Part shown: positions 4,950 to 63,157 of the stretch, piece by piece
How the letters are laid out: every line of letters starts with the position of its first letter
How positions within the stretch are numbered: the stretch's first letter is position 1
Assembly (NCBI RefSeq): GCF_021390715.1
Contig: NZ_JAJGWT010000005.1
Span: forward strand, 126,650-190,649
Origin: Tenacibaculum piscium
Lineage (GTDB): Bacteria > Bacteroidota > Bacteroidia > Flavobacteriales > Flavobacteriaceae
DNA length: 64,000 bases
Reading direction: 5' to 3'
Program-made: the position numbers and the translations under genes
Notes under the pieces: model-generated
Seen by the model: only the letters and a program-made list of their open reading frames with translations
Database searches by the model: none
What the model was told of the DNA's origin: nothing

Positions 4950-4954
4950 TTTGA

Positions 4955-5075
4955 GTTATCTATCCAATTTCAGATAAATGAATCTAAAATTAAGTAGAAT
5001 TTAGCACCTTCTTTGACTTAAACAAAGGGTTGCTAAGGCTTCACAGGGTCTAATCCCTCCACCTTTCTTGATAAC
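4955..5075 (-). promoter_or_regulatory. SAM-I (S-box) riboswitch controlling metY and metX-thrA
   Basis: Read on the minus strand, the leader contains the S-box core TTATCAAGAAAGGTGGAGGG, then GACCCTGTGAAGCCTTAGCA and AAGGTGCTAAATTC, in the right order and spacing. Closing helix P1 is GTTATC (5070-5075) paired with GATAAC (4955-4960). A P4 hairpin forms from AATTTTAGAT and ATCTGAAATT with one G-T pair. The aptamer lies about 120 bases upstream of metY, a methionine-biosynthesis gene, which is the usual context for this riboswitch. Confidence 0.93.
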
Positions 5076-5170
5076 ATTGTCAATTAAGTTATTGAACTTT
5101 GTGAAAGCAAATATTCAAATATTATATTTTAATATCCTAATTTATTTTGATTTATTTTTTATAATTATTA

Positions 5171-20964: not shown

Positions 20965-21054
20965 GGAGCTATTTCCCGCTTTCCGCACTCGCTTTTTTTT
21001 TTGAAGAAAAATCAAAAAAAAGGAGCTCAAACAATTGCTTCAATCGGGGCTAAG
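20965..21054. repeat. Flavobacterial intergenic repeat, copy 1
   Basis: This 90-base sequence starts GGAGCTATTTCCCGCTTTCC and ends CAATCGGGGCTAAGC. It is repeated in inverted orientation at 63069-63157 with few differences. The ends are imperfectly complementary (AGCT...CCCG / CGGG...AGCT). The middle forms a CTTTTTTTGA / TTCAAAAAAAG type hairpin in copy 2, so the element is strongly structured. I recognise similar repeats as frequent in Flavobacteriaceae genomes. Confidence 0.85.
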
Positions 21055-21192
21055 CTTATTTACTAAATTTCATTTTTCACTATTTATTCATTTTTTGTTT
21101 TTTTTATTTCTTTAAAAAGTTTATTTTAATAGATTTTAAGAGCATAAAAAAATCTTCATATTAAATTAATCATAAAAGCAATGACAAAAGCA

Positions 21193-41899: not shown

Positions 41900-41967
41900 C
41901 CGTCATAAATTAACCTCTGACGATACTCGTGAATGTTGTTTTATAAAACTATATAAATATCATTACC

Positions 41968-47150: not shown

Positions 47151-48815
47151 ATGAGGTTTAAAATTTCTTTAATATTCGTTTTACTAACAAATATAACCCT
47201 TTTTGCGCAAGTGAAAATTGGCGAGAATCCTTCGACTATTAATTCGAACTCTGTTTTAGAGCTTGAAAGCCCTGATAAAGTTTTAGTGATTACGAAAATG
47301 GATACGGCTCAAATGAATGCCATACAACCTTTACAGGGGGCATTAGTTTATAACACTACTGAAAATTGTGTATTTTCATATAACGGAACTACTTGGAGAA
47401 GTTTATGTGATTCTGCGAGTTTTATCACAGATAGTGTACAACCTATAAATAATAATATTGGTGATTTTTGGAATGACAGCTCAAACGGAAATACCGTTAA
47501 TATTTGGAACGGTTTAAACTGGATTTCATTAAATAGTAAAATAAAGACAGGAACAGGAATACCAACCAATATAACTGCTCCAAATCCGATTGCGGGAGAT
47601 GTATATATTGATCTTGCTACTGCAAAAACGTACACCTATAACACAGCAACTTCAAGTTGGGTTACACAAACATCAACAAATACAGGAGCTTCCGTAAAAG
47701 TTACAACAGCAAACACCGCTCCTACAACTAATAATAAAGGAGATTTTTGGATTAATGATACGGCAGGTTTAAACAATCCAACAAGTATTTATGACGGTGC
47801 AACTTGGGTTTTATTAAATTCAACAAATACAACAACAGGAACAACTCCTCCTACAAATCCTAATAATGGAGATTTTTGGATTGACAATACAAATCCATCA
47901 GATAATAAAACAAATATCTGGGACGGTTCAAATTGGGTTTTATTAAATTCAACATCAACAAATACAGGAAATTCTATAAAAGTAACTCCACTAGCTGATA
48001 ATCCTCCTGCAACAGATAATAATTTAGGAGATTTTTGGATTAATACAACGAACAACCAAACAAGTATTTTTGACGGTACAAGTTGGATTTTATTAAATTC
48101 AACATCAACAAATACTCAAAATCCTGTAAAAGTTATAAATAATACAACTGCTCCTGCAAATCCTAATAATGGAGATTTTTGGGTTAATCCAACAACCAAC
48201 GAAACAAAAATTTGGGACGGTACAACTTCAACTTGGGTTTTATTAAATGGAAATCCGAAGAAAGGAACTGGAATACCTACCGATACAACTGCTCCAAATT
48301 CAGTGGCTGGTGATATTTATGTAGATATCGCAACAGGAACAATTTATGCTTATACGGGAACAGCTTGGATAACACAAACAAATACTCAAAATCCTGTAAT
48401 AGCAAGTAATGGTTTAACTATTGATGATACTACTGACCCTACAAAAAATAACATACAATTAGGTGGAGAATTATCTGATAATACGATTATTGATACAAAC
48501 GGAAAAACCTTTGCTATTAAAAATTTACAAACTGGAGATATTACAAATGATGATATTGTTACTATTGATAGAACAACAGGAGAATTAAAGAAAGTAACCT
48601 TAAATACAGTTCTTAAACAAGAAGTAACTAAATTAACAGCAACGACACTAAATCAAGATACTTTTACTAAACCAGATTTCGGAAATAATATAACCGTATA
48701 TAGAAATGGCGTTCGTGTAGATTTTACACTAGAAAATAACGATACAGAAATTAAATTAGAGCCTAACGCAAAATGCTACGCAGGCGACCAAATAAGAATA
48801 GTTCAATTTTATTAA
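47151..48815 (+). CDS. Secreted modular repeat protein with GDFW modules (tail-fibre-like)
   Basis: The 554-residue protein has a signal peptide (to LFAQ) and an N-terminal module, NSNSVLELESPDKVLVITKM, followed by QGALVYNTT. A series of modules of about 40-50 residues comes next, built on NNxGDFWxxxT...TxIxDGxxWVLLNS. Five GDFW copies start near 47459, 47740, 47868, 48028 and 48171, flanked by two related GDxY copies. The C-terminus FGNNITVYRNGVRVDF...QIRIVQFY resembles that of the next gene. Modules of the GDxWFNTxxxxLxxYDGxxW kind are familiar from phage tail fibres and bacterial surface fibres. A surface filament or adhesin is the best guess; no enzymatic motif is seen. Confidence 0.7.
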   Translation: MRFKISLIFVLLTNITLFAQVKIGENPSTINSNSVLELESPDKVLVITKMDTAQMNAIQPLQGALVYNTTENCVFSYNGTTWRSLCDSASFITDSVQPINNNIGDFWNDSSNGNTVNIWNGLNWISLNSKIKTGTGIPTNITAPNPIAGDVYIDLATAKTYTYNTATSSWVTQTSTNTGASVKVTTANTAPTTNNKGDFWINDTAGLNNPTSIYDGATWVLLNSTNTTTGTTPPTNPNNGDFWIDNTNPSDNKTNIWDGSNWVLLNSTSTNTGNSIKVTPLADNPPATDNNLGDFWINTTNNQTSIFDGTSWILLNSTSTNTQNPVKVINNTTAPANPNNGDFWVNPTTNETKIWDGTTSTWVLLNGNPKKGTGIPTDTTAPNSVAGDIYVDIATGTIYAYTGTAWITQTNTQNPVIASNGLTIDDTTDPTKNNIQLGGELSDNTIIDTNGKTFAIKNLQTGDITNDDIVTIDRTTGELKKVTLNTVLKQEVTKLTATTLNQDTFTKPDFGNNITVYRNGVRVDFTLENNDTEIKLEPNAKCYAGDQIRIVQFY

Positions 48816-48849
48816 ATAAAAAACCCCAAAATTAATTTTAAAATCAAAA

Positions 48850-49545
48850 ATGATGAGAAAAACAAATTCTTTTAAATTAGCCGTAGTTGCTGTCGGAATG
48901 TTAGCAATCGGAACTGTAAGCGCACAAACAACTACTGCTACTGATTTAGTAAAACAAGCAGAAGCTGTAAAATCTGTAGATAACAAAGGTACAATTAATC
49001 ATGTACAAGCTCTTAATGGTCTTACTCAAAGTACAAATGCTGATAATGTAACTACTTTTCAATTAGGTGGAACTTTAGTAGCTCCTACAACTATTACTAC
49101 TGATGCAACTAATTACTTCGCTATTCAAGGAGTTGAAAGAGTTGAAATTAGTGGTGCTAACGCAGAAGTTCCTGCTACCGTAGCAACACTTGGTACTGGT
49201 GGGATTTCTTTAATGGTTAGAGATGAAGCTACAGGAGAAGTTAAAAAATTATTAGCTGAAGATGCTGCTAAATTCTTAAGTCTTTTTAATCGTGCTATTA
49301 GAGAAGAAGGTACTCCTACTACTCCTGGTACGTTTGCTGTTGCTGGTTTACCTCTAATGAATCCTGCTTCTGCAAATGCTATAGAAGCAGCTGAAGCAGA
49401 AAGTAATATAGCTAAATTATTTGTGTATAGAAACGGTGTTAAGCTAAATTATGGTACTGACTTTACTGTTCCTACTGCTGATGAAATTACTTTTACTTTA
49501 GCTAGTGCAGTTACTGATATTATTGAAGTACAATTTACAAACTAA
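48850..49545 (+). CDS. Secreted protein of the VDNKGTI family, fibre-like
   Basis: The 231-residue protein has a signal peptide ending GTVSAQ, followed within about 20 residues by SVDNKGTINHVQALNGL. Its C-terminus, LFVYRNGVKLNYGTDFTVPT to DIIEVQFTN, is homologous to that of the preceding 554-residue protein. The body is Ala/Thr-rich and low in cysteine. It is 34 bases after the preceding gene and ends at a large hairpin, so the two form one unit. It could be a major structural subunit, since it is short, simple and compositionally regular; that is speculation. Confidence 0.65.
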   Translation: MMRKTNSFKLAVVAVGMLAIGTVSAQTTTATDLVKQAEAVKSVDNKGTINHVQALNGLTQSTNADNVTTFQLGGTLVAPTTITTDATNYFAIQGVERVEISGANAEVPATVATLGTGGISLMVRDEATGEVKKLLAEDAAKFLSLFNRAIREEGTPTTPGTFAVAGLPLMNPASANAIEAAEAESNIAKLFVYRNGVKLNYGTDFTVPTADEITFTLASAVTDIIEVQFTN

Positions 49546-49586
49546 TATTACTGCATAAAAGCATTACAACTTAATTGAATTATTAC

Positions 49587-49638
49587 TTATAACTTTTGGC
49601 ATTGGTTCTTATTTAGAGCCAATGCTTAAAAGTTATAA
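49587..49638 (+). terminator. Long hairpin after the 231-residue surface protein gene
   Basis: TTATAACTTTTGGCATTGG pairs with CCAATGCTTAAAAGTTATAA with one interruption, leaving a 13-base loop. There is no long T-run, so it may act partly as a processing or attenuation hairpin. Confidence 0.6.
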
Positions 49639-49777
49639 ATTACAAAAATAGTTGCTTACTTTCCCATCTAAACTATTTATAATACCCCAAATTACCGTTA
49701 TCCTCCCCCTGACTAAAAACACAAATCTACTCTGATTTGGTGTTTTATATTATCATATAATTTAATATAGTAAGGAC

Positions 49778-50611
49778 ATGATAGACTACAAAAGAAATAC
49801 CATTATATTAATTTTTGCCTTAATTTTTATCTCATTAAAAATAACAGCACAAAGAACTAGTGTTGTTGATAATAAAGGAACTATTAAAAATGTAAACACA
49901 AGTGTTAGTAGCGGTACATACGCTCCTGCAAATCCTTTAGAAGGTGATATTTGGTTTGAAAGCAATCCGACTAATAATAAAGTTAAAATTTATGATGCTG
50001 ATGAACCAACACCAGCCAATAGATGGAAAAGTATTTCTAATCAAAATATATACACTGAAAATGGAACTTTAACGGGTATTAGAGACTTAAATGGAGCTGG
50101 TAATAGTTTATTCTATTTTAATTTAGGTTCATTTCAAGTTTATGATACAAATGAGATTCAATTAAGATGTGAAACTTATTTTCAAATAGAAGGAAAATCA
50201 GGAATCTACCTTTATAATACCACTACAATACATGAAGACCTTTCTCTTAAAAAACGTTTTATAGATGCTAGTAATAAAGCTGGTACGAGTGGTCAAATAT
50301 TATCATCAACAGGAACAGGTACAAAATGGACATCTAATAATACGCATCCGATAGAAAATACTACTAATAATTTTATATTAGATGAAACTCATCATACAAT
50401 TATTTTAGACAATACCACACCAATAACCATTACAATTCCTGATGCTTCTACGGCAAAAGGACGGATATATATCATAAAAACCAATACGCTCGGTACAGCG
50501 ACATTATCAAGAGATTATATACCAACGGATAGAATTCCTTTAACAATACTTGCAAATTCATTAACATATCATCTACAATCGGACGGAACTAATTGGCAAC
50601 AAATAAATTAA
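49778..50611 (+). CDS. Secreted VDNKGTI-family protein with IPDAST C-terminal domain
   Basis: The 277-residue protein has a signal peptide ending KITAQ, immediately followed by RTSVVDNKGTIKNVNTS. One EGDIWFESNPTNNKVKIYDA module follows, then a linker TSGQILSSTGTGTKW. The C-terminal domain of about 85 residues (ITIPDASTAKGRIYIIKTN ... YHLQSDGTNWQQIN) ends the 814-codon gene at 51968-54412 too. The shared N-module and swapped C-domain suggest one assembly system with different tips. No known enzyme motif. Confidence 0.68.
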   Translation: MIDYKRNTIILIFALIFISLKITAQRTSVVDNKGTIKNVNTSVSSGTYAPANPLEGDIWFESNPTNNKVKIYDADEPTPANRWKSISNQNIYTENGTLTGIRDLNGAGNSLFYFNLGSFQVYDTNEIQLRCETYFQIEGKSGIYLYNTTTIHEDLSLKKRFIDASNKAGTSGQILSSTGTGTKWTSNNTHPIENTTNNFILDETHHTIILDNTTPITITIPDASTAKGRIYIIKTNTLGTATLSRDYIPTDRIPLTILANSLTYHLQSDGTNWQQIN

Positions 50612-50732
50612 AATAATTATATTTTTTATTATTATCCATAATTAAATTATATTTACGCGATTTAAATATAACTCCCTATACGCTATTTTTTAAAAAAATA
50701 ATCGTATATTATGTTCTCTAATAGTAAAAAAG

Positions 50733-51806
50733 ATGAAAAATTATAAAAACTACTTATTTATCTTAGTATTTATTTTTATTTCGATAAAAATAAATGCACA
50801 AGAATTTAATGTTGTTGATAATAAAGGAACTATAAATTCGGTATTTAAAAATAAAGTAACAACTTCTCCGACCGCAAGTCCTCCTGCTTCAAAAATAGAG
50901 GGCGATGTTTGGTTTGATACGACTGCTAGTGAAATTAAAATTTATGATGGTAGTATTTGGAAAAAAATAACGAATATAAATACACTTTCCGACAATATAT
51001 ATACCACCGATGGCACTTTAACTTCGGATAGAGCTATTTTAGGAGATGGGAAAAGTATCATGTTTGATGGTCTTAATAGGTTTGATATTATTGATAATCA
51101 ATATATTAGCCTTCATTCTCTTGGAGGTATTTTACTTCAAACAACGGATTCTTATGCAATTACTCTTGATGCTAATACATCGGTAGAAAAAAACCTTTAT
51201 TTAAAATCAGGTCTTCTAGATACTAATTATAATTTAGGAACAACAGGACAAGTTTTATCATCAACAGGAACGGCTACTGAATGGATTGATAATACAGCAT
51301 CAGTATATACAGGCTCTTTTATTATAGATGCTCCAACAACTACTACTACAGATATAAATTTTGATAAAATAATAACAGGATTGCCTTTTAAACCATCTCA
51401 AATAACTTTTGTTGCACATGCAAATATTGAAAGTTTTGACACTGATAGTAAAAATAGCGATAGAAGAAACTCAAATACTTTACAAAATTCTTTCGGTACA
51501 ATGAATGGTTTTGCTAGATATGACAAAACTCCAGCAACGACTACACAATCTGTTATATTTGTAGGAGGAAGTGGTAATTCTATTAATGATATTTCAAGAC
51601 TTTCATCAAATAGTAATTGTATCGGTTTAAGATACGGAGATAAAGATGCTATAGATTTAGGTAAAATTATGGGGAATTTAACATCTTTTAATAATGATGG
51701 TTTTACTATAAATGTAAAATATACTTTAGGAACTTCAGGAAATACCACTAATAAACAGCTTATTTTTAAAGAAAGTCTAATCGTTTTATACACTGCTTAC
51801 AAATAA
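50733..51806 (+). CDS. Secreted VDNKGTI-family protein with a unique C-terminal domain
   Basis: The 357-residue protein starts with a signal peptide ending KINAQ and then EFNVVDNKGTINSVFKNKVT. A GDVWFDTTASEIKIYDGSIW module and the GTTGQVLSSTGTATEWIDN linker follow. The last 165 residues (from GSFIIDAPTTTTTDINFDKI to ESLIVLYTAYK) are not seen elsewhere in the window and look like an all-beta recognition domain. AATTATATTTAC upstream (50645) is repeated upstream of the next gene (51947) and may be a shared promoter element. Confidence 0.68.
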   Translation: MKNYKNYLFILVFIFISIKINAQEFNVVDNKGTINSVFKNKVTTSPTASPPASKIEGDVWFDTTASEIKIYDGSIWKKITNINTLSDNIYTTDGTLTSDRAILGDGKSIMFDGLNRFDIIDNQYISLHSLGGILLQTTDSYAITLDANTSVEKNLYLKSGLLDTNYNLGTTGQVLSSTGTATEWIDNTASVYTGSFIIDAPTTTTTDINFDKIITGLPFKPSQITFVAHANIESFDTDSKNSDRRNSNTLQNSFGTMNGFARYDKTPATTTQSVIFVGGSGNSINDISRLSSNSNCIGLRYGDKDAIDLGKIMGNLTSFNNDGFTINVKYTLGTSGNTTNKQLIFKESLIVLYTAYK

Positions 51807-52021
51807 AAAACCAGCTTTTTATAAAATTGATATTGCAAATAACAGGTCAAATTACTAAAAAAAACCTTTAAATAAAAACCTAATATATTAAGAACTAATC
51901 GACAATAAATAAATTAATAATATATTTATATAATTATGTTTTTTTCAATTATATTTACCCAAAATATATGAAAAATTACACGCTTTGCTATAGGTGTGTT
52001 TTCTTGTTAAGAAAAAAAAAA

Positions 52022-54412
52022 ATGATAAATTATAAAAATCGCTTATTTACCTTAATTGTTCCTTTTATTTTCCTTTCAATAAAAGTAAATGCACAAGAAT
52101 TTAATGTTGTTGATAATAAAGGAACTATAAATTCGATATTTAAAAATAAAGTAACTACTGGCTCAAGTCCTCACCTTAATCCAATAGAGGGCGATGTTTG
52201 GTTTAACGATACTGATGGTAAAATTACCATATGGGACGGTACTAATTGGAAAAAACTTTCTGATAGTAATAATATTACTACAAACATTTACAATGCAAAT
52301 GGTAGTTTAACAAACCATCGAGTTTTAACAGGGAGTACAGGAACTGGCGGGAGATATGACTTATCTTTTAACGATATTGGAAACTTTACTGTAAACACTA
52401 CTGTAACGGAAATACTTAGTTCTGGAGAAACTAAGATTGGTTCTAGTGGAGCAAATACCACAATTAAAGCAAATAATACTATAGTACTAAATACTAATAC
52501 AAGTGTTGCTAAAAACCTTACTGTAGATGAAAATTTTCAAGTAAAAAAACAATTTATAGATGCTGGTAATAATGCAGGAACAGCAGGTCAAATTTTAGCA
52601 TCAACAAGTACAGGTACTAGTTGGATTGATAACACTAAAAATAAAGTAACAACAATTGCTACCGCACCTCCTTCTCCAGTAGAAGGCGATGTTTGGTTTG
52701 ACACAACGGCTAGTGAAATTAAAATTTACGATGCTGATGAACCAATAATTGCAAATCGTTGGAAAAAATTAGCTGATAGTAATAACCTTACTGAAAATAT
52801 TTATACTGCCAACGGAACGTTAACGGCTAATCGATTATTAACAGGTAACAGCAATTCATTTCGTTTTACAGATTTAAGTGATTTCTATATAGACGGTACA
52901 AATTATATCGCACTACAATCTACAGGTTTTTTAGATTTAAGAGCTACTAATGGTATTAATGTCGTTGACCATGCACGGTTCGTAGAAAACATTACTGTAG
53001 ATAAGGGTTATAAAGATAGTACTGGAAGTTTTGGTGGCGATGGTCAAATTTTAGCATCAACAAGTACAGCAACTAAATGGATAGACAATGATGCTGCACA
53101 TACAGGAACAACAGGTTCTATATTTTTTGCAGGAGCAGTTGGAAAACCAACAGAAAATAATACTCAGTTAAGCTGGGATGATATAAATAAGAAGCTTTAT
53201 GTAGGAAACCCTTTTAACATTTCGGATACTAATAAATTAACAGTAAACGGAACAGCAAGGGCTATACGTTTTAGGAGTTCTAATGGTACTGTGGGTAATC
53301 CTGCCTTTAAATTTTCAGATGATAACAATACAGGAATGTATCGTATTGGAGAAGATAATTTAGGTTTTTCAACCAATGGTACAAATGCTTTAGCAATAGA
53401 TGCGACACAGAATATTAGTATTCCGAAGAACTTATCTGTAACAGGTACTTATGCTGATACAAATGGTGATGCTGGAACAACAGGACAAATTTTATCATCA
53501 ACAGCAACGGGAACAGATTGGATTGATAATCCTGCATTAAATAATTGGTTAACCACAGGAAACTCAGGAACAACAACGATTAATTTTTTAGGAACTACCG
53601 ATGATAAAAAAATGCAAATACGCTCAAATAATATTCCTTTATTGGAGTTTGGTCGTAGGCAAACCCTAGGATTAACACAAAGTTATCCTGATTATACTGA
53701 TGATAATCAATCAGTAGTACATATTAGAGGAAATAATGGAGTTTCAGCACTACAATTTGAATCAAGTGGTGCTAATTTTTATAAACCGATATTCTTTACT
53801 ACATCAAATGGAAGTTTTAGATTGAAGGGAGCTTCTGGTAAAACTGATTTTTTCGAAATTGGTTCTGCTGGCCCAGATAATCAAGGTCGTTTAGAATTTG
53901 TTATTGGTGATGATGGTGATGAGCCAATCGTTTTTAAAAGATATGATTACAGAGGAGCTCAATTTCACCGAGAGTTATTTCGTGTTCAAGGTAGTAATGA
54001 TACACAAAATGCTAAAACAAGATTTGGTATTAATTTAAATCAACAAGAAGTACCCATTTCTAGTAATTTAAATGCTAATTATAATGATGCTTCTTTTAAA
54101 AGGGCAAATTCGACCTTTCAAGTAGTAGGTTCTGTTTCAAAATCGATAACAAGTACAAATACTAATTTTACTTTAACAGAAGACAACTATACTTTGATTT
54201 TAAAAAATAATACAGCTACAAATATAACAATTACAATTCCTGATGCTTCAACGGTAGAGGGAAGAATATATATTATTAAAACAAGTGCTTCAGGATTTGC
54301 TACATTATCTAGAAATTATGTAAGTAGTAATAGCACCACGACTCTTGGACTTACAAATGCCACAGTATATCATTTACAATCTGATGGAACAACTTGGCAA
54401 CAAATAAACTAA
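52022..54412 (+). CDS. Large secreted VDNKGTI-family protein with tail-fibre-like modules
   Basis: I chose the ATG at 52022 (796 residues), because MINYKNRLFTLIVPFIFLSI then KVNAQ is a signal peptide; the in-frame ATG at 51968 adds a poor leader. The protein has EFNVVDNKGTINSIFKNKVT and two GDVWF modules (IEGDVWFNDTDGKITIWDG and VEGDVWFDTTASEIKIYDA). Four GQILxSTxTxTxWID linkers follow, then NTGMYRIGEDNLGFSTNGTN, a classic phage tail-fibre segment. The end is the IPDAST domain shared with 49778-50611. It is the largest member of the locus and likely the main adhesin or fibre shaft. Confidence 0.7.
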   Translation: MINYKNRLFTLIVPFIFLSIKVNAQEFNVVDNKGTINSIFKNKVTTGSSPHLNPIEGDVWFNDTDGKITIWDGTNWKKLSDSNNITTNIYNANGSLTNHRVLTGSTGTGGRYDLSFNDIGNFTVNTTVTEILSSGETKIGSSGANTTIKANNTIVLNTNTSVAKNLTVDENFQVKKQFIDAGNNAGTAGQILASTSTGTSWIDNTKNKVTTIATAPPSPVEGDVWFDTTASEIKIYDADEPIIANRWKKLADSNNLTENIYTANGTLTANRLLTGNSNSFRFTDLSDFYIDGTNYIALQSTGFLDLRATNGINVVDHARFVENITVDKGYKDSTGSFGGDGQILASTSTATKWIDNDAAHTGTTGSIFFAGAVGKPTENNTQLSWDDINKKLYVGNPFNISDTNKLTVNGTARAIRFRSSNGTVGNPAFKFSDDNNTGMYRIGEDNLGFSTNGTNALAIDATQNISIPKNLSVTGTYADTNGDAGTTGQILSSTATGTDWIDNPALNNWLTTGNSGTTTINFLGTTDDKKMQIRSNNIPLLEFGRRQTLGLTQSYPDYTDDNQSVVHIRGNNGVSALQFESSGANFYKPIFFTTSNGSFRLKGASGKTDFFEIGSAGPDNQGRLEFVIGDDGDEPIVFKRYDYRGAQFHRELFRVQGSNDTQNAKTRFGINLNQQEVPISSNLNANYNDASFKRANSTFQVVGSVSKSITSTNTNFTLTEDNYTLILKNNTATNITITIPDASTVEGRIYIIKTSASGFATLSRNYVSSNSTTTLGLTNATVYHLQSDGTTWQQIN

Positions 54413-54433
54413 TTTTCACATACATATAATACT

Positions 54434-55594
54434 ATGAGAAACCTACTTTTTATCATTTTATCCACTACGATTACATTTGCTCAAACAGCTTTTTATAATG
54501 ATGCTAGCGGAAATATTCAATTGCATGATAACGCTAAAATAGGTTTTCATACTGATTTAGAGAATAATGGAACTTTTGATACTTCTAATAACTATAAAGG
54601 TTTAGCAGGTTTTTATAACGATACCAAAACATTAACCGTTTCAGGAACTGAAAAAATAACTTTTTATGATGTTGAAATTGATGTTGCAAACGATTTAGAA
54701 TTACAAAAATCTTTAGCACTTACAAATGAGTTAAGTTTTATAAATGGTAAAGTTATAACGCCTAGAAATAATCTTGATATTTCTTTGGAATTTAATAAGC
54801 ATAATTTTTATGCAGGAGAAAATGATGAGAATCATATTAATGGTTACGCAACGGTAATTGGGAAAAATGATTTTATATTTCCAATTGGTGATGGCGACCG
54901 TTTACGCCCAATGATTTTGCCTATTCAAAATACGGCAACTACTTTTTTAGGAGCTTATTTCTTTGAAGATCCAAACATGCTAAGTACTTTTTCTGGTTCA
55001 GCTTTAACAAATGATAAAGAAGATTTTATTGATATTATCAGTAAAAAAGAATTTTGGGATTTAAACGGAGATTCAGCAACAAGCGTAACTTTAACTTGGG
55101 ATAATTTTAGTGATATTGGTACATTATCTGATGACAGTCAAAAATTAAGAATTGTAGGTTGGAGTATTTTAGAAAATAAATGGAGAGATCTTGGTGCAAA
55201 AAATCTTACTGGAGATTTAACAAAAGGAACACTAACTTCGGATGTTTTTATTCCTGATAATTATGAAATTATTACAATTGCTTCAGGTTTTGCTGATTCA
55301 AAATCGAATTATGTAAATCTTTTAATATCACCAAATGGCGATACGAAAAACGAAACCTTAGTATTTAAAAACTTAAAGAAATATAATACAAATCGTTTAG
55401 AAATATTCAATCGTTGGGGTAATACAATTTACAAAACCGATAATTACAACAATGATTGGAACGGAATATCAACAGGACGCGCTACAGTAATATCAAAAGA
55501 AAAACTACCTGCAGGAACGTATTTCTATATTTTAAAATACGGAATCAATAATTTATCGAAAACTCAAAAAGGTTGGGTTTATATTAATCGATAA
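54434..55594 (+). CDS. Type IX secretion substrate with type B (gliding-motility-associated) C-terminal domain
   Basis: The 386-residue protein has a signal peptide ending TITFAQ, a beta-rich body (KVITPRNNLDISLEFNKHNF, then DDFIFPIGDGDRLRPMIL-like strands), and a C-terminal region from about residue 300: SPNGDTKNETLVFKNLKKYN, LEIFNRWGNTIYKTDNY, NDWNG, LPAGTYFYILKY. This is the CHU_C / type B sorting domain, exported by the type IX system and usually attached to or released at the surface with SprF-type partners. It lies 21 bases after the large fibre gene, so it probably anchors or exports the assembly. Confidence 0.8.
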   Translation: MRNLLFIILSTTITFAQTAFYNDASGNIQLHDNAKIGFHTDLENNGTFDTSNNYKGLAGFYNDTKTLTVSGTEKITFYDVEIDVANDLELQKSLALTNELSFINGKVITPRNNLDISLEFNKHNFYAGENDENHINGYATVIGKNDFIFPIGDGDRLRPMILPIQNTATTFLGAYFFEDPNMLSTFSGSALTNDKEDFIDIISKKEFWDLNGDSATSVTLTWDNFSDIGTLSDDSQKLRIVGWSILENKWRDLGAKNLTGDLTKGTLTSDVFIPDNYEIITIASGFADSKSNYVNLLISPNGDTKNETLVFKNLKKYNTNRLEIFNRWGNTIYKTDNYNNDWNGISTGRATVISKEKLPAGTYFYILKYGINNLSKTQKGWVYINR

Positions 55595-57819: not shown

Positions 57820-57983
57820 AAAAAAACCTACATTAATAAGGTTTTATAAACTCCGTAAAAACAGGTTTAGGACTAACTGGCTTGTCAAGGATCCGATACT
57901 AAAAATCGGCATGCTTTAAAAACCAAGACTCATCCTTTCTAAATAAATAGTGTTGAGTTTAATAAACAATATACTAATGTAGG
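57820..57983 (-). ncRNA. ssrS: Probable 6S RNA
   Basis: Between zapA and rny, the minus strand holds a gene-free stretch of about 160 bases that folds into a long rod. CCTACATTA at the 5' end pairs with TAATGTAGG at the 3' end, AAACTC pairs with GAGTTT, AGGA with TCCT, and a terminal CCGAT / ATCGG hairpin caps it. A T-run follows the closing stem. 6S RNA is linked to zapA in many bacteria. The fold and location support the call; I could not run a covariance model. Confidence 0.62.
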
Positions 57984-63068: not shown

Positions 63069-63157
63069 GCTTAGCCCCGATTGAAGCAATTGTTTGAGCT
63101 CCTTTTTTTGATTTTTCTTCAAAAAAAGAGCGAGTGCGGAAAGCGGGAAATAGCTCC
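63069..63157. repeat. Flavobacterial intergenic repeat, copy 2 (next to the recombinase gene)
   Basis: Inverted copy of 20965-21054: GCTTAGCCCCGATTGAAGCA, GAGCTCCTTTTTTTGATTTT and GAAAGCGGGAAATAGCTCC are shared. The core folds as CTTTTTTTGA / TTCAAAAAAAG. It ends 48 bases before the tyrosine recombinase start. Confidence 0.85.

Follow-up and report, generated by a model that had tools for sequence, protein, structure and literature searches.

The described system that comes closest in plan to the one considered here is F-ENA, which polymerises into the spore pili of Bacillus and Clostridia (PMC11952670, in the part of the report available). According to the same part of that report, the gene directly upstream codes for an anchor protein with a head at its end, the shaft subunit has a hook and a head, and the tip has a hook and no head, with the docking of anchor and tip being an AlphaFold3 prediction (PMC11952670). 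We have analysed a locus of six plus-strand genes, g1 to g6, at positions 47151–55594 of a 64,000-nucleotide stretch of Tenacibaculum piscium DNA (hereafter the window), which corresponds to positions 126,650–190,649 of contig NZ_JAJGWT010000005.1 in a genome of 2.65 Mb and 37 contigs. Compared with F-Anchor, F-ENA and F-BclA (DUF4183), the same three roles would be filled here with the same parts, that is, an anchor with a head only, a shaft with hook and head, and tips with a hook only. The correspondence was found as a plan and not as a motif; the hook sequence differs and no sequence relation was found. In contrast to F-ENA, the proteins carry Sec-type signal peptides, several alternative tips are encoded per locus, and the locus is linked to a type IX sorting gene or to an outer-membrane barrel-like gene. 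The hosts also differ, being two-membrane and non-sporulating, unlike the bearers of F-ENA. Our reading, to which we give a probability of roughly 0.57, is that the locus encodes a cell-surface pilus-like fibre whose subunits are joined by hooks docking into heads.

A sequence-only reading of this DNA had described five consecutive exported proteins built from shared parts, followed by a gene with a type B type IX sorting domain, and this arrangement holds at the coordinates listed below, where all six genes are open reading frames (ORFs). It had also suggested a surface adhesion system with variable tips. A conserved, non-phage, export-directed system with exchangeable tips is indeed present, but the five proteins are not equal fibres: g1 has a head and no hook, g2 has a hook and a head, and g3, g4 and g5 have a hook and a tip and no head. 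These different parts point to a base, a shaft and a set of tips. The NKGT motif lies close to the mature N-terminus in g2, g3, g4 and g5 and is absent from g1, which agrees with the NKGTI segment claimed for four of the five. The GDxW modules and GQIL linkers were likewise recovered by counting, with GD[FVIY][WY] occurring seven times in g1, once each in g3 and g4 and twice in g5, and GQ[IV]L[AS]ST once each in g3 and g4 and three times in g5 (these five sites are the same as repeat family D4). The C-termini are exchangeable, as had been proposed: the same domain ends g3 and g5, and a different one ends g4. Signal peptides were assigned by the lipobox/signal-peptide rule; N-terminal signal peptides ending in AQ, and lacking a lipobox cysteine, were read by eye on all six proteins. 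Scans of Pfam and TIGR found no family above its curated cut-off in g1–g5.

The features of the locus are as follows.

47151..48815, +: g1, putative base/adaptor; signal peptide, VKIGENP...LELES anchor module, GDxW...DGxxW repeats, and a C-terminal neck and head like those of g2, without the NKGTI hook
48618..48812, +: g1 C-terminal head (YRNGVR...YAGDQIRIVQFY), limits approximate
48850..49545, +: g2, proposed shaft subunit; signal peptide, hook, LGG neck, head
48964..49017, +: g2 hook segment (VDNKGTINHVQ...), residues 39–56
49291..49542, +: g2 head, residues 148–231; fold like the T7 gp17 N-domain and CBA120 TSP4, and more weakly the F-ENA subunits
49587..49638, +: RNA hairpin directly 3' of g2, −28 kcal/mol
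49778..50611, +: g3; hook, stalk and C-terminal domain (WQQIN type)
49853..49891, +: g3 hook (VVDNKGTIKNV)
50733..51806, +: g4; hook, stalk and lectin-like tip
50802..50840, +: g4 hook (VVDNKGTINSV)
51285..51803, +: g4 tip domain; mean predicted local distance difference test (pLDDT) 82, weakly similar to H-type lectins and to phage tail proteins
51891..51968, +: between g4 and g5, what is left of a 3' end of g3 type together with the gap that follows it
52022..54412, +: g5; hook, a long stalk in which the GQ(I)L(A/S)ST linker occurs three times, and C-terminal domain (WQQIN type)
52097..52135, +: g5 hook (VVDNKGTINSI)
54128..54409, +: g5 C-terminal domain, common to g3 and to proteins of other loci
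54434..55594, +: g6, candidate surface anchor, type IX export
55316..55585, +: g6 type B C-terminal sorting domain (CHU_C / TIGR04131) of the type IX secretion system (T9SS)

The intergenic gaps from g1 to g6 are 34, 232, 121, 215 and 21 nt; for g5 the start at 52022 is preferred, the mechanical ORF beginning at 51968. Tandem 150-nt repeats within g1 (47908–48248, 2.3 copies) coincide with the GDxW modules, and g1 has 554 aa here, compared with a range of 141 to 478 aa and a median of 311 among 76 other loci.

Loci for comparison were obtained from a contig scan of 84,980 species with the g2 alignment, in which 222 stretches matched and 97 encode relatives; loci counts refer to the best 80 of these 97, or to 81 when the window is included. 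Profiles of the hook (g2 residues 39–56) and the head (residues 148–231) were made from the 71-protein g2 alignment, which holds the window and 70 of 75 g2 proteins (the g6 and g1 alignments hold the window plus 44 of 51 and 41 of 72 proteins), and were run on all ORFs of the 81 loci. The head profile matched g2 in 81 of 81 loci, g1 in 59 of 77 (a partly circular figure, the g1 set having been chosen with a head-containing profile), none of 105 exported proteins whose genes lie between g2 and the sorting gene, and none of 1046 other ORFs. The hook profile matched 81 of 81 g2 and 0 of 77 g1 proteins, 49 of the 105 exported proteins (73 by pattern) and 9 of the 1046 other ORFs; the g2 scores of both profiles are built in by construction, while the zeros of the other classes are not. 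Judged by their N-termini, the nine are all hook proteins. The set of 105 was picked by a rough signal-peptide pattern; it misses these nine tips and possibly includes unrelated neighbours. Comparison of the g1 and g2 profiles with hhalign gave 98.9% probability (E 1.4e-17 over 155 columns), the neck and head being common to both.

We infer trimers, hook-in-head docking, polymerisation, surface exposure and a function for the tips, as follows. The g6 protein would be exported by the type IX system and sit on the cell surface. As the base, g1 would meet an outer-membrane module with its N-terminal module and point its C-terminal head outward. Trimers of g2 would then add serially, each NKGTI hook docking on the preceding head, to give a shaft. 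One of g3, g4 or g5 may enter by the same hook and, because it has a hook and no head, would cap the fibre; the differing C-termini of these three proteins, one of them lectin-like, would set the binding target. The g1–g5 proteins might cross the outer membrane by riding with g6.

The locus is a real, conserved, non-phage gene system. Its distribution is patchy, since g2 occurs in few genomes of the genus, family and phylum samples: 15 of 58 genomes of the genus (T. piscium itself included), 8 of 199 of the family (seven with E below 1e-50) and 5 of 392 of the phylum (three with E below 1e-50). At an identity threshold of 50%, full-length g6 was found in 11 of the 58 genus genomes, and most other g6 matches are to the sorting domain alone. 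The best 80 of the 97 relatives all come from named Bacteroidota, mostly Flavobacteriaceae by genus name; names of other types among them are three Chryseobacterium, one Nubsella and one Paludibacter metagenome-assembled genome. The closest g2 loci are those of Tenacibaculum finnmarkense and T. dicentrarchi. Other carriers are Lutibacter oricola (L106), Maribacter sedimenticola (L110), Cellulophaga baltica (L127) and Zobellia uliginosa (L122), in the last of which no sorting gene was seen. Conserved gene order in Bacteroidota, the check proposed with the sequence-only reading, was found. A same-strand gene lies at most 900 nt upstream of g2 in 77 of the 80 loci, and in 76 of these 77 it is g1; a sorting-domain gene follows in the downstream same-strand run in 52 of 80, with 10 loci ending too soon downstream of g2 to judge. 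The g1 and g6 profiles were trained on the genus of the window, and distant members may escape them.

The g2 gene is distinguished by what follows it. In the window, the RNA hairpin directly 3' of g2 reaches −28 kcal/mol (z −6.85 over 49575–49655). In a survey of gaps of 40–450 nt, hairpins below −12 kcal/mol were present in 0.78 of 45 gaps after g2, compared with 0.13 of the 23 gaps that follow tips and 0.45 of 200 randomly sampled gaps that follow other genes. The shuffles of this survey preserve single-base content and nothing more. The g3–g4 gap of the window also folds better than its shuffles (z −3.1), while the g4–g5 gap does not. Hairpins after major pilin genes often raise their yield relative to downstream genes. 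The hairpin 3' of g2 is thus fitting for an abundant shaft subunit made in excess.

Genomes of the genus that lack g2 provide a natural replacement of the shaft. Twenty loci were fetched for this comparison, and L038 and L039 were omitted from the hook and head table as matches that are not this locus. Among the remaining 18, 14 have g2, heads and hooked tips (the hooked tips of G033 and G060 were read from N-termini), and four (G002, G003, G034 and G067) lack g2, heads and hooks alike, while g6 and related tip domains persist; the tips of these four start with other N-termini, of the SVMGIP or PVSGFP type. The joint absence of g2, heads and hooks gives a Fisher value of 3e-4 across the 18 loci, which, like our other Fisher values, is overstated because loci within a clade are related. 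In G002 the g1 anchor module opens a 4397-codon frame of repeats (L028/L164), in G003 it opens a collagen-like repeat that is broken by a frame change (L037), and in G067 it forms a 258-codon frame directly 5' of a 2714-codon repeat frame (L063/L165). A collagen-like frame in G034 extends past the contig end (L029). Given these giant frames in the g2-less loci, a long repeat protein takes the place of the absent g2 shaft.

Structural comparison was made with an AlphaFold2 model of g2 (mean pLDDT 76, head blocks 77–97). With VIA-align, the first 41 of the 50 rows listed for the g2 head are virus chains or F-ENA fibres (Z 4.3–7.6), the viral chains being mostly phage tail, neck, portal or baseplate proteins. 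The head scores Z 7.1 against the T7 gp17 N-domain and Z 7.4 against TSP4, and reaches middling scores against F-ENA (9hze, Z 5.7, 66 aligned, root-mean-square deviation 2.6; 9i65, Z 5.4, 68 aligned, root-mean-square deviation 2.5); Z values of 5–8 can be reached by unrelated models, and the F-ENA matches rank 21 and 27. Foldseek gave 63 viral models with E ≤ 0.001 for the head. The g4 tip best matches the C-terminal part of discoidin II (Z 6.5), T4 gp9 (6.2) and Helix pomatia agglutinin (5.8), again middling scores; discoidin II and the agglutinin we take to be H-type lectins. Sequence searches against solved structures gave nothing credible for g2, g4 or g5.

The connection to the outer membrane appears to take two forms. 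The g6 protein matches CHU_C (PF13585, E 3e-26, 91.7 bits against a cut-off of 27) and the type B family TIGR04131 (44.5 bits, cut-off 35), and no sorting domain was found in g1–g5 by the same scans up to E 1. Among the five genes of this genome with a sorting domain above cut-off, g6 is the only one without a PorP/SprF neighbour. Conversely, one of the five PorP/SprF genes (G000:C4:231578-232501, L167) has no sorting gene near it, none being found among the ORFs of 226000–244000. This gene is a candidate shuttle for the unpaired g6, although the pairing is a guess. In Flavobacterium johnsoniae, three unpaired type B cargos use one unpaired shuttle and are reported to be directed to the gliding machinery (PMC12618676, in the part available). 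Elsewhere in the T. piscium genome, a sorting domain terminates a 7581-aa frame that is followed by a PorP/SprF gene, an SprB-like layout (G000:C7:71777-72013).

The second form is a small exported protein (222–228 aa, six seeds) with sub-threshold matches to outer-membrane barrels (of the six scanned, five gave best E values of 6e-5 to 6e-3 and one gave no match). Its gene is found 5' of g1 in 11 of the 28 loci whose stretch shows no downstream sorting gene (6 of 18 with room and 5 of 10 ending early) and in 0 of 52 with one, giving a Fisher value of 2e-6, or 1.4e-4 when the early-ending loci are left out (6 of 18 against 0 of 52). Genes for small barrel-like exported proteins stand directly upstream of g1 at L064:5565-6245 and in L036, L065, L066, L067 and L035, which are loci without a sorting gene. 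The g1 N-terminus varies with the membrane module: a sorting gene is present with 43 of 48 VKIG-type g1 proteins, but in only 9 of 32 loci with other or untyped g1. This association suggests that g1 fits the shaft to either of two membrane modules; both patterns follow clade lines, and history alone could be part of the explanation. Dependence on the T9SS was also sought by co-occurrence with SprA, and this approach was rejected. SprA is present in 41 of 41 g2-bearing genomes (42 of the 80 loci were given to the search, and L101 was left out), and is uninformative because 198 of 199 family genomes have it.

Exchange of tips is seen both between and within loci. By C-terminus, the 105 exported proteins form 21 groups, six of which occur both with and without a hook (the non-hook member L124_11 is a short frame). 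Where a locus has at least two hooked tips, their C-terminal groups differ in 10 of 11 cases. In the window, a remnant of a g3-type gene end lies between g4 and g5 (51891–51968), a match that 0 of 300 shuffles reach, and is a scar of tip-gene turnover, by gain or loss. Around the hook, g4 and g5 are 94% identical over 96 nt. A candidate scar of a g6 start after g4 is a weaker hint, less firm than the g3-type remnant, since over the entire gap it is equalled by 11 of 300 shuffles, and over the first 44 nt, a piece picked post hoc, by 0 of 300. Phase variation of the tip genes was considered and rejected: inverted repeats around the tip genes revealed no evident invertible promoter, a Bacteroidota promoter pattern is not enriched in the window (6 found against 10.4 expected), and sigma-70-type sites there are at chance level (59 against 61.5). 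Another exported protein, about 300 aa long (QIxxYNxFPTMKPxHILD), is encoded repeatedly between the tips, at L031:8837-9736, in L077, L080, L091, L094, L113 and L116, and in others; the C-terminal group to which it belongs comprises nine proteins from 8 loci, none with a hook and one with a sub-threshold arabinofuranosidase match.

Several observations weigh against a hook-and-head fibre, in addition to the circularity of the g1 head count, the relatedness of the loci and the ranks of the F-ENA matches given above. The link to a sorting gene is frequent and not obligatory, because 18 of the 80 loci have enough room downstream and no such gene, and the occurrence of SprA gives no information on the link to the T9SS. 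By pattern, a hook is lacking in 32 of the 105 exported proteins, and non-hook tips of the SVMGIP type also stand beside g2 (L071, L074). Since hhalign lays the g2 hook over the GDxY...GTIYAY hairpin of g1, the hook may be only a variant of a common stalk hairpin. In the hairpin survey, 36 of the 81 g2 gaps are outside 40–450 nt or have no co-directional next gene; the 47 gaps after g1 hold no hairpin, but with a median of 48 nt are too short to judge. PF13799, the F-ENA family, has no match in this genome at E ≤ 10, nor is it among the 14 Pfam families matched by the 71 g2 homologues at E ≤ 0.1, and a sequence relation to DUF4183 was rejected on this basis.

The same hook and head grammar would fit a structure without any polymer, in which a single g2 ring serves as an adaptor and one trimer each of g1, g2 and a tip stack, as in phage tails, into a short fibre of three parts and fixed length. 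The matched phage structures do use the head as a connector or neck domain, and no head beyond g1 and the single g2 was found in any of the 81 loci. We nevertheless regard a single ring as unlikely: the g2 hairpin suggests that g2 is made in excess, the giant stalk of the g2-less loci suggests that g2 supplies length, and F-ENA, with the same plan, polymerises (PMC11952670, in the part available). Somewhat less likely again is that all five proteins, g1 to g5, are independent adhesins, each an exported lectin on a stalk, with stalk modules inherited from a common ancestor and NKGTI as the first stalk hairpin. The alignment of NKGTI with the g1 GDxY...GTIYAY hairpin, the shared stalk linkers and the presence of non-hook tips in the same loci would all be expected from this; the nearly invariant order of g1 and g2 (76 of 77) would not, nor would the absence of hooks exactly where heads are absent in the genus sample.

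Enzymes that bind polysaccharide or host, or soluble secreted factors, with no fibre at all, seem improbable. The weak fold matches of the tip include lectins and a tailspike, and the accessory protein of a related locus has the sub-threshold arabinofuranosidase match, but stalk repeats and fibre-type folds dominate and no family lies above its curated cut-off in g1–g5. Least probable is the remnant of a prophage or tailocin. The stalk modules match PHROG fibre families, g4 has a PHROG tail-fibre match at E 4.5e-7, and the head fold is phage-like, so the resemblance to phage tail fibres noted from the sequence extends to modules and folds. It does not extend to close sequence relatives: of 36 viral-contig stretches that matched the g2 pattern none was confirmed as a relative, and a tblastn search of 50,697 phage records matched neither g2 nor g4 and yielded only two weak pieces for g5. 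Signal peptides are present on all six proteins, and the flanking genes, which we take to be up1, up2, rny and M23, recur around the same genes in related genomes of the genus (no scan of the flanks for virion families was made). The non-phage origin that had been proposed from the signal peptides is borne out, and we reject a phage origin as the present function while keeping it as a source of the folds.

Other described systems share single parts with the locus. The N-domain of T7-type tail fibres and TSP4 (7boz, 8dsp, 7rfv) have the fold of the g2 head (Z 7.1–7.4 over 63–67 residues), but in g2 the domain is C-terminal in an exported protein that has no close phage relatives. Type B cargos such as SprB go with PorP/SprF; g6 has the domain without an adjacent PorP/SprF gene, as do three orphan cargos of F. 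johnsoniae (PMC12618676, in the part available), and differs in being accompanied by g1–g5, which have no sorting domain. The sorting domain of Aureispira GhpA (9flp) is alignable with that of g6 (E 8e-16), but GhpA is a single chain of 5898 residues of which only the sorting stretch matches. Type V (FimA/Mfa1) pili are surface fibres of the same phylum; here there is no lipobox cysteine, and no FimA/Mfa1 Pfam match up to E 1. No other plus-strand ORF of at least 80 aa was found between g1 and g6 for a chaperone-usher system, and no YadA-type barrel of a trimeric autotransporter was matched in g1–g5 by Pfam up to E 1. Among titles and abstracts, in a search whose coverage did not extend to bioRxiv and most subscription journals, no paper describing this locus was found, and the available part of a report on tandem genes for colony spreading (PMC9950754) has nothing on it. 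The plan is thus already known from spore pili, while for the proteins, the phylum and the outer-membrane link no description was found in the literature searched.

We put at rather less than an even chance the fuller proposal that these loci form a new class of pilus in two-membrane bacteria, with a trimeric g2 shaft built hook-into-head outside the cell on a g1 base, interchangeable outer-membrane modules (either g6, exported by the T9SS, or a small barrel) and interchangeable lectin-like tips, in which the shaft can be replaced by a giant repeat or collagen-like protein; if g6 uses an unpaired SprF-like shuttle, the fibre may even ride the gliding machinery. Should the pilus reading be true, the hook-and-head plan of spore pili would also exist on Bacteroidota in proteins unrelated in sequence, whereas to our knowledge the surface fibres of this phylum work otherwise. 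It would name fibre parts in species of Tenacibaculum, Polaribacter, Lutibacter, Maribacter, Zobellia, Flavobacterium and Chryseobacterium, and would assign a role to the g2 family, which is outside Pfam coverage. It would also make testable whether proteins without a sorting domain reach the surface alongside T9SS cargo, in what way unpaired type B cargos are put to use, and how adhesive tips are exchanged while the shaft stays as it is.

Elsewhere in the window, five stretches match Rfam families above their gathering scores: a SAM riboswitch (4953–5077), two Flavo-1 RNAs (20968–21055 and 63069–63154), an L19 leader (41911–41938) and a 6S-Flavo RNA (57848–57958).

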